From Paludibaculum fermentans (GTDB taxonomy: Bacteria; Acidobacteriota; Terriglobia; Bryobacterales; Bryobacteraceae): a stretch of DNA of 64,000 nucleotides. The stretch is from NCBI RefSeq assembly GCF_015277775.1, contig NZ_CP063849.1, forward strand, positions 5,967,501 through 6,031,500. The letters are read 5' to 3'. The notes below the pieces were generated by a model. The model did not search any database. It was not told the origin of the DNA and was given only the letters and a program-made list of their open reading frames with translations. Below are positions 60,306-64,000 of this stretch, in pieces; the first letter of the stretch is position 1, and the number at the start of each line of letters is the position of its first letter. The position numbers were made by a program, and so were the translations under genes.

Positions 60306-60382
60306 TGGTAGGGACGGGCAGATTCGAACTGCCGACCTTCCGCTTAGGAGGCGGACGCTCTATCCAGCTGAGCTACGTCCCC
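60306..60382 (-). tRNA. tRNA-Arg (anticodon CCU)
   Basis: On the minus strand the 77-base cloverleaf begins GGGGACGTAGCTCAGCTGGA and ends CGTCCCTACCA. Acceptor stem GGGGACG pairs with CGTCCCT (one G-U), the anticodon stem is TCCGC/GCGGA, and the loop CTCCTAA gives anticodon CCU, reading AGG. GTTCGAAT is the T loop. CCA is encoded. Confidence 0.95.
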
Positions 60383-61757: not shown

Positions 61758-63629
61758 ATGCGACAGATCAACTACGACGTTGTGATCATCGGAGCCGGAC
61801 ATGCCGGATGCGAGGCGGCCCGTGCCTGCTCGCGGATGGGCCTGCGCACCGCGATGGTCACAATGAACATCGACCTCATCGCGCAGATGTCCTGCAACCC
61901 AGCCATTGGCGGAATCGCCAAAGGGCACCTGGTCCGGGAGGTCGACGCGCTGGGTGGAGTGATGGCCGAGGTGGCCGATCAGATCGGGATCCAGTTCCGC
62001 CTCCTGAACACCAGTCGCGGCCCGGCTGTCTGGAGCCCCCGCGCCCAGATGGATAAGAAGCAGTATCGCTTCAAGATGCGTGAGACCCTGGAGCACGAAC
62101 CGAACCTCCGCATCCTGCAGGCCGAAGTGGCCGAGATCGAGTATGACGATCTGGCGGACGGCCGCCGCAAGGTCCGCTCCATCCGCTTGTCGGATGGACG
62201 CTCGCTCCAGACCCGCACCGTGGTCGTCACCACCGGGACCTTTTTGAATGGCCTGGCCCACGTAGGCGAGACCAAGTCCAACTGCGGCCGGAGCGGGGAA
62301 GCGCCGTCGAACCTCCTGGGCCACCACCTCCGCAGCCTCGGTCTGCAGTGGACCCGCCTCAAGACCGGCACCCCTCCGCGTCTCGATGGCCGCACCATTC
62401 AGTGGGACCGGTTCGAACCGCAACCGGGCGACCCCATCCCCACCCCTTTCTCTTTCCTCACCACCAGGATCGACCGCCCCCAGATCGAATGCCACATCGC
62501 CTACACCACTGATGAGACCCACCGCATCCTGCAGGAGGCGATCCCGCGTTCCCCGCTCTACAGTGGACAGATTGAAGGCATCGGTCCCCGCTACTGCCCC
62601 TCCATCGAAGACAAGATCGTCAAATTCCCGGATAAAACCCGCCATCAGATCTTCCTGGAGCCGGAAGGACTGGATACGTACGAAGTCTATGTGAACGGCA
62701 TGTCCACCAGCATGCCCATCGACGTGCAGGAAGCAATGGTCGCCTCCATCCCTGGCTTGGAGAATGCGGAGATGATCCGCCCCGGTTATGCCATCGAGTA
62801 CGACGCCATTGACCCCAGGGAACTGAACCATACCCTGGAAGTGAAGAAGATTGAGGGCCTTTTCCTCGCTGGGCAGATCAACGGGACATCAGGCTATGAG
62901 GAAGCCGCCTGCCAGGGGCTTCTGGCCGGAATCAACGCCGGCTGCCAGGTAAAGGGCATCGATCCCATCGTTTTGCGCCGCAATGAGGCCTACGCGGGCA
63001 TCCTGGTCGACGATCTGGTGACCAAAGGGGCTGATGAGCCCTACCGCATGTTCACCTCAAGAGCCGAATTCCGCCTGTTTCTCCGTATCGACAATGCCGA
63101 CGAGCGCTTAACGGCGGAAGGACGCCGCGTCGGACTGGTAACGGATGAGCGCTGGGCGGTTTACGAGAAGAAACTGGCGCAGAAGGCCCAGGTACTCCGT
63201 CTTTTGGAGACAAACCGGGTCACACCGGAGCATTTCTCCGCCTTGGGGCTACCTGCGGACGAAAGACCCATGCTCCAGGTCTGGTTGCGCCGTCCCGACG
63301 CCAAGATCGAGCAGATCCGCCCCTGGCTGGAACAACAACTGGGAGAACCTACCGTTGCCGCCGTTCTGACCACCGTGGAGACCGAAGTGAAGTACGAGGG
63401 CTACCTTCACCAGCAGGAACGCCAGATTCAGCGCCTGAAGGACTCGGAAGGCCGCCTGATCCCTGCCGGATTCGCATTTCGGGGCATTCCGGGCCTCAGT
63501 CGGGAGATCTGTGACAAGTTGGAGCGGGTTCAGCCCGAGACGCTTGGTCAAGCGGCCCGGATTCCCGGTGTTACCCCTGCCGCCGTCGCGGTTCTGGATT
63601 GCTACCTCAGTTTGAACCGTCAGGCCTAG
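61758..63629 (+). CDS. mnmG: tRNA uridine-5-carboxymethylaminomethyl(34) synthesis enzyme MnmG
   Basis: A 623-residue FAD protein that, with MnmE, modifies the wobble uridine of several tRNAs. [20 protein letters not shown] binds [23 protein letters not shown] and [12 protein letters not shown] are hallmarks, and [17 protein letters not shown] lies in the second half. mnmG (gidA) is frequently next to the replication origin, followed by rsmG-parA-parB. Here the 3' end is part of a 197-bp tandem duplication carrying parS sites. The stop TAG at 63627 becomes TGG in the second copy. Confidence 0.97.
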
Positions 63630-63632
63630 CAT

Positions 63633-63648
63633 TGTTCCACGTGGAACA
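63633..63648. promoter_or_regulatory. parS site 1
   Basis: Perfect 16-base palindrome TGTTCCACGTGGAACA, four bases after the mnmG stop. It fits the bacterial chromosomal parS consensus (TGTTTCACGTGAAACA and its C/G variant) bound by ParB. It lies in duplication unit 1. Confidence 0.92.
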
Positions 63649-63829
63649 TCCAAACAGTCCGCTTCCCTTCCTCAGTTCCCTCTGACTTGGCCTCAGCCTG
63701 GAGATCTGTGACGAGTTGGAGCGGGCTCAGCTCGAAAGAGTCGGGCGGGCGGCGTACATCCCAGGCTTAACACCCGCCGCGGCATCGGTTCTCGATTACT
63801 CCCTCAGTCTTGACCGTCAGGCCTGGCAT

Positions 63830-63845
63830 TGTTCCACGTGGAACA
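63830..63845. promoter_or_regulatory. parS site 2
   Basis: Second perfect TGTTCCACGTGGAACA, exactly 197 bases after site 1 and in the equivalent place in duplication unit 2. Confidence 0.92.
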
Positions 63846-63889
63846 TCCAAACAGCCCGCTTCCGTGCCTCAATCGCCCTCTGGCCGCTA

Positions 63890-63905
63890 TGTTCCACGTG
63901 GAACA
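63890..63905. promoter_or_regulatory. parS site 3
   Basis: Third perfect TGTTCCACGTGGAACA, 60 bases after site 2, beyond the duplication. Confidence 0.92.
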
Positions 63906-63925
63906 CTCCCAATTCCGGCCCTCAG

Positions 63926-63941
63926 TGTTCCACGTGGAACG
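63926..63941. promoter_or_regulatory. parS site 4 (one mismatch)
   Basis: TGTTCCACGTGGAACG, 15 of 16 bases, 36 bases after site 3. The four sites lie within 309 bases; no gene is recognised from here to the window end. Confidence 0.85.
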
Positions 63942-64000
63942 TACGTGGTAGGATAGCGGTTTCGGCGACGCTCCGGAGCTGACCCTCGCGTTAGCACCTC

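Follow-up and report, generated by a model that had tools for sequence, protein, structure and literature searches.

The window analyzed here, a 64,000-bp stretch of the genome of the soil bacterium Paludibaculum fermentans P105T, ends on the right with mnmG (gidA), four 16-bp palindromes that together span 309 bases, a predicted promoter element, and the start of the parA leader; parA and parB follow just past the window end (Table 1). Three of the palindromes match TGTTCCACGTGGAACA perfectly and the fourth matches it with one mismatch, at the positions given by a sequence-only reading of this DNA. When up to three mismatches to TGTTCCACGTGGAACA were allowed, the window contained four matches, only the cluster sites, compared with a mean of 0.25 in dinucleotide shuffles of the window, none of 100 of which reached four. 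Across the genome (9,532,094 bases in two contigs), matches with at most one mismatch occurred at four places, all four in the cluster, and the reversed pattern used as a control gave none; allowing two mismatches added four places scattered in the genome, against one for the control.

Table 1. Features at and beside the cluster of palindromes that are almost certainly parS sites
Feature	Position in window	Strand	Comment
mnmG (gidA)	61758..63629	+	623 aa; open frame upstream of the cluster; NCBIfam TIGR00136 mnmG_gidA, 805.5 bits (cut-off 524.85)
Repeat copy 1	63492..63674	+	183-nt direct repeat; functional mnmG 3' end and parS site 1
parS site 1	63633-63648	.	Perfect; 3 bases past the mnmG stop codon
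Repeat copy 2	63689..63871	+	79% identical to copy 1, 197 bases apart; relic mnmG tail and parS site 2
parS site 2	63830-63845	.	Perfect; inside repeat copy 2
parS site 3	63890-63905	.	Perfect
parS site 4	63926-63941	.	One mismatch, G for A at the last base; G002 and G006 share this form
Predicted extended -10 element of parAB	63946..63954	+	TGGTAGGAT
parA leader, start	63955..64000	+	Runs on beyond the window to 64064 (L009:565); includes part of the ~74-nt near-invariant insert
parA	64065-64847 (window-equivalent; L009:566-1348)		Past the window end; starts 123 bases after the last parS
parB	64819-65745 (window-equivalent; L009:1320-2246)		Past the window end; ~0.9 kb downstream of the sites

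The par operon, the origin side, and the assignment of the sites

The sequence-only reading had predicted par genes just to the right of the cluster, and parA, then parB, are indeed found directly downstream, so that the genome encodes both cognate proteins, in adjacent genes. The ParB protein scored above the cut-off of the TIGR00180 model (190.1 vs 58.45) and below that of the Noc model (224.5 vs 315), and it aligned to ParB/Spo0J chains of solved structure, most closely at residues 46-241; the alignment includes the segments gerrlras and eniqredlnpie, which we take to be the CTP-binding motifs. Taken together, these matches identify a ParB-family protein other than Noc. ScpA and SMC-hinge matches above cut-off are encoded elsewhere in the genome. 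Two more ParB_N-domain matches lie close together on the minus strand at C1:9234371-9237059, distant from the par operon.

dnaA is located ~21 kb to the right of the cluster (at 6.05 and 6.03 Mb, respectively), and gyrB and dnaN, as read from the open frames, would lie further right of parB. All four places with at most one mismatch are thus confined to the origin region. The additional claim that oriC lies to the right fits the location of dnaA, although the exact oriC was not located: no consensus DnaA-box cluster was found over the 35 kb searched on that side (L009 and L016), where TTWTNCACA had one match in L016 and none in L009. A search of L016 for TTATCCACA with one mismatch gave three matches, compared with 1.2 expected; two of these, separated by 42 bases, fall on the 3' end of dnaA and shortly after it. 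Cumulative GC skew over 40 sampled 20-kb stretches reached its minimum at the 6.41-Mb sample and was nearly flat to 7.4 Mb, placing the origin only coarsely.

Within the window, GC skew in 4-kb steps changes sign near 28 kb (window position about 28000), turning positive. In the assembly, dnaA (L016:1521-2895; C1:6051521-6052895, minus strand) is split over two frames, and the DnaA model matches as a single uninterrupted stretch in G002, G004, and G006; the genome was sequenced by 454/Nanopore (PMC8407742), and a sequencing error is one possible cause of the split.

Considering the adjoining parA and parB, the presence of ParB, and, with all motif sites in the genome mapped, the restriction of close matches to a single place, the four palindromes are almost certainly the parS sites of the chromosomal ParABS system of P. 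fermentans P105T, as had been proposed. The likely centromere of this large acidobacterial chromosome is thereby pinned to one 309-bp cluster. The locus shares with chromosomal ParABS (Soj/Spo0J-parS) systems the 16-bp parS next to adjacent parA and parB, the origin-side location, the ParB-family protein, and the SMC-hinge and ScpA genes; it differs in the lack of rsmG between mnmG and parA, in the concentration of all close matches in one 309-bp cluster, and in the apparent gain of one site with a duplicated mnmG tail. Four strong origin-near sites, with intergenic ones next to promoters, are likewise described for Pseudomonas aeruginosa parS1-4 (PMC4368675, PMC7022226). In that species, ParB binding extends to six dispersed sites with more than one divergent base (PMC4368675); P. 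fermentans has the four scattered two-mismatch matches, so this difference may not be real.

By analogy with known ParABS systems, for which ParB loading, sliding, and origin organization are covered in a review (PMC7333895), ParB most likely binds each parS as a dimer. Bound ParB would then close into a CTP-dependent clamp and slide into the neighboring DNA, building an origin-side partition complex that ParA would move, resulting in segregation of the copied chromosomes; SMC-ScpA may load at the parS cluster.

The parS cluster is ordinary and well supported, and what is modestly new about the locus is the duplication-born site, the changing rsmG slot, and the parA promoter element with the leader. 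Among the entries listed in a literature search with partial coverage, none concerned parS in this bacterial group or a gain of parS by duplication.

The parA promoter element and leader

Relatives were sampled as the best 80 of 375 confirmed named relatives; in 72 of these, the retrieved sequence shows mnmG followed by parA, and the eight without it were dropped. Together with the loci of P. fermentans (G000) and two further genomes (G002 and G006), this gave 75 loci, 67 of which contain TGNTANNAT between the last parS and parA; the eight lacking it are L085, L087, L098, L100, L105, L115, L122, and L128. Shuffles predict this motif in the 150 bases before parA in 1.2 loci, and mnmG-internal control stretches had none. 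We read it as the predicted extended -10 element of parAB. In 18 of the 67 loci (L076-L154 set, from the best 80 of 375), the element ends six bases before the parA start, as set by alignment to P. fermentans ParA, which suggests leaderless parA mRNA in these loci.

With a predicted start near 63961, parS site 4 would cover approximately -35 to -20. The cluster might then double as the parAB operator, with ParB on parS site 4 repressing its own operon at TGGTAGGAT; this role, which would add to that of a centromere rather than replace it, is conceivable but on balance doubtful. In its favor are the conservation of TGNTANNAT between the last parS and parA in the 67 loci, the distance of four bases from the last parS to the element in nine loci, including G000, G002, G006, L076 (G004), L077 (G003), and L078 (G005), and the near identity of the bases in G000, G002, G006, G003, and G004. 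In P. aeruginosa, genes adjacent to the intergenic sites parS3 and parS4 are repressed by ParB (PMC7022226). Against this role, the same source reports that genes beside parS are unchanged in Bacillus subtilis without Spo0J, a generic promoter scan yielded no sigma-70 site at TGGTAGGAT, and the distances from the last parS to the element in the 67 loci (relatives from the best 80 of 375) are close to random packing, with 21 within 5 bp (19.5 expected) and 35 within 16 bp (38.2 expected). Given that closeness does not exceed random packing, we rejected a family-wide rule of parS placed in the -35 region. The last parS ends in A in 38 of 67 cases, compared with 52 of 69 for other sites in the same sample (Fisher p 0.029), a difference to which we attach little weight because the loci are related.

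The loci of three members of the same genus, G003, G004, and G005 (mnmG-rsmG-parS-parA), resemble that of P. fermentans in having parS beside parA, at the same four-base distance to the promoter-like element, but contain rsmG in the slot and one or two parS (at most one mismatch to TGTTCCACGTGGAACA).

Relative to G004, the genomes G000, G002, and G006 carry ~74 additional bases in their parA leaders, an insert detected in neither G003 nor G004. Over an 84-base stretch spanning the insert, identity to G000 is 99% for G006 and 95% for G002; in mnmG, 146 (G006) and 169 (G002) of 498 third codon positions differ from G000. A search with the whole interval in 101 family genomes, in which some candidates per genome were scored, gave matches past base 465 only in G000 and G006, among the matches listed, G002 not being one of them. 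A mobile repeat was rejected as the source of the insert, considering that outside parA leaders only short matches were obtained (E 0.015 or worse, in six genomes). The fold of the leader (L009:442-565) was no better than that of shuffled sequences (z +0.49). At curated thresholds, Rfam models produced one match in the window, a tRNA at 60309-60382. The four matches below threshold in L009:1-800 (two microRNA families, one HIV-1 element, and one lncRNA) were taken as chance. Lacking a convincing Rfam match or an unusual fold, an RNA function of the cluster or the leader was rejected.

parS number and the duplicated mnmG tail

When sites that deviate by no more than one mismatch from any one of four parS forms are counted, the mnmG-parA intervals of the 72 relatives (from the best 80 of 375) contain no parS in 7 loci, one in 19, two in 32, three in 11, four in 2, and five in 1. 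One to five sites are therefore present in 65 of the 72 loci (one to three in 62, four or more in 3), and, with up to two mismatches, each of the 75 loci has at least one. The GAAACA form is used by many relatives, and 30 of 61 genomes (P. fermentans included among the 61, and some incomplete) lack a match within one mismatch of the GGAACA form. Four sites is a high count, but not an exceptional one. The dense cluster, which had been expected to make a strong ParB loading center, is thus nothing special, as three of the 72 relatives also have four or more sites. In P. aeruginosa, any one of the four origin-near sites suffices (PMC4368675), so that parS number alone does not speak for a strong center.

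The palindromes could instead serve a different regulator as operators, or be nucleoid-occlusion (Noc) sites. Noc is itself a ParB-family protein, and the P. fermentans protein does score 224.5 bits with the Noc model; nevertheless, this reading is very improbable, given that the score falls below the Noc cut-off of 315, that the sites resemble the chromosomal parS form (mainly TGTTNCACGTGAAACA; PMC7022226), and that such sites are found beside parA in most relatives examined (from the best 80 of 375). Least probable of all are chance palindromes or an assembly artifact that duplicated one site: two sites do lie inside a direct repeat, but none of the 100 shuffles reached four matches, the two copies of the repeat, with 21% of their positions different, are not one stretch assembled twice, and the three sites of G006 (60/36) and G002 (59/36) are spaced like sites 2-4 (60/36), give or take one base.

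With the palindromes taken as parS, the repeat probably accounts for one of the four sites. The second repeat copy is absent from G002 and G006, which have three parS sites. At positions where these two relatives agree with each other, the copies share 15 changes against them, copy 2 sides with the relatives against copy 1 at 3 positions, and 21 changes are found in copy 2 alone; most simply, the duplication followed the split from G002 and G006. Over 138 coding bases, all 18 differences between copy 1 and G006 fall at third codon positions. In the same stretch, changes at codon positions 1, 2, and 3 number 6, 10, and 5 in copy 2 and 0, 0, and 2 in copy 1, in a count that drops positions, mostly third ones, at which the two relatives disagree; taken over all 35 positions that distinguish copy 1 from copy 2, the distribution is 7, 10, and 18. 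The 16 first- and second-position changes in copy 2, compared with none in copy 1, identify the second mnmG tail as a relic. That parS site 2 is perfect is weak evidence of selection because the site is short.

We consider it likely that this lineage lost rsmG from the mnmG-parA interval, leaving the parS cluster directly against mnmG, and that the mnmG 3' end was later duplicated together with parS, adding a fourth site, with the tail decaying and the parS staying perfect. A search for tail duplications in the 72 relatives (from the best 80 of 375) identified one, in L098, with 82.6% identity over 121 bases. There, at L098:7848-8149, an mnmG tail was duplicated together with a parS in another lineage. 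L098 is placed elsewhere on the MnmG tree, and such duplication has thus probably happened at least twice. More speculatively, and with the odds rather against it, parS and the parA promoter might form one regulatory unit in this clade, through which ParB would mark the origin and set its own dose, and the array would grow by duplication of a gene end with its parS, relic tails recording the gains and L098 being a second case. A ParABS review (PMC7333895) raises as an open question why the number of parS sites differs and what causes them to cluster. A parS added by duplication, with a coding relic attached, provides a worked case for both, and the 72 relatives (from the best 80 of 375) supply the counts.

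The rsmG slot

The sequence-only reading had assumed the order mnmG-rsmG-parA-parB, which does not apply here: the 435-base interval between mnmG and parA contains no rsmG, and the sole rsmG-family match in the genome is 2.07 Mb away, at C1:3958308. In G003, G004, and G005, of the same genus, rsmG occupies the slot, and in G002 and G006 it is missing there. Among the 72 relatives (from the best 80 of 375), tblastn (1e-4) detected rsmG between mnmG and parA in 47 and not in 25; 19 of these 25 intervals are 301 bases or shorter and hence too short for rsmG, whereas the remaining six could conceal a divergent rsmG. On a quick MnmG tree (76 rows), the state of the slot requires 10 changes, at least 6 of them forced by well-supported branches, compared with 23.4 after shuffling. 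The rsmG slot beside parS thus switches state repeatedly on the tree, with a number of changes that cannot separate loss from gain.

The RsmG proteins were compared among the best 30 of the matches found. Six genomes have mnmG next to parA with no rsmG between (G000, G002, G006, G012, G016, and G021), and the strong rsmG matches in the other five are 59-88% identical to rsmG of G000, compared with 33-41% for the 19 loci in which mnmG lies beside rsmG. For loci without an mnmG match in the stretch, the identities are 62% (G022), 46% (G014), 33% (G037), 30% (G060), and 29% (G059). An RsmG tree of 28 of these 30 proteins (G021 and G029, in which the trimming motif is absent, were omitted) separates seven (G000, G002, G006, G012, G014, G016, and G022) from 21 with support of 100/100. 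The split lies on a long branch (2.21 plus 0.63 on either side of the midpoint root), and the tree program warned that the long row G051 meets the seven-member group, a kind of join that can be spurious. It looks like the native rsmG was replaced by a second type, either foreign or ancient, with loss and gain in either order. This distant RsmG type, with L051 assigned by identity only and L054 and L055 having no mnmG-parA slot in view, is encoded elsewhere in genomes lacking rsmG in the slot, at C1:3958308-3958772 in G000 (L046) and in L048-L052, L054, and L055 in the relatives.
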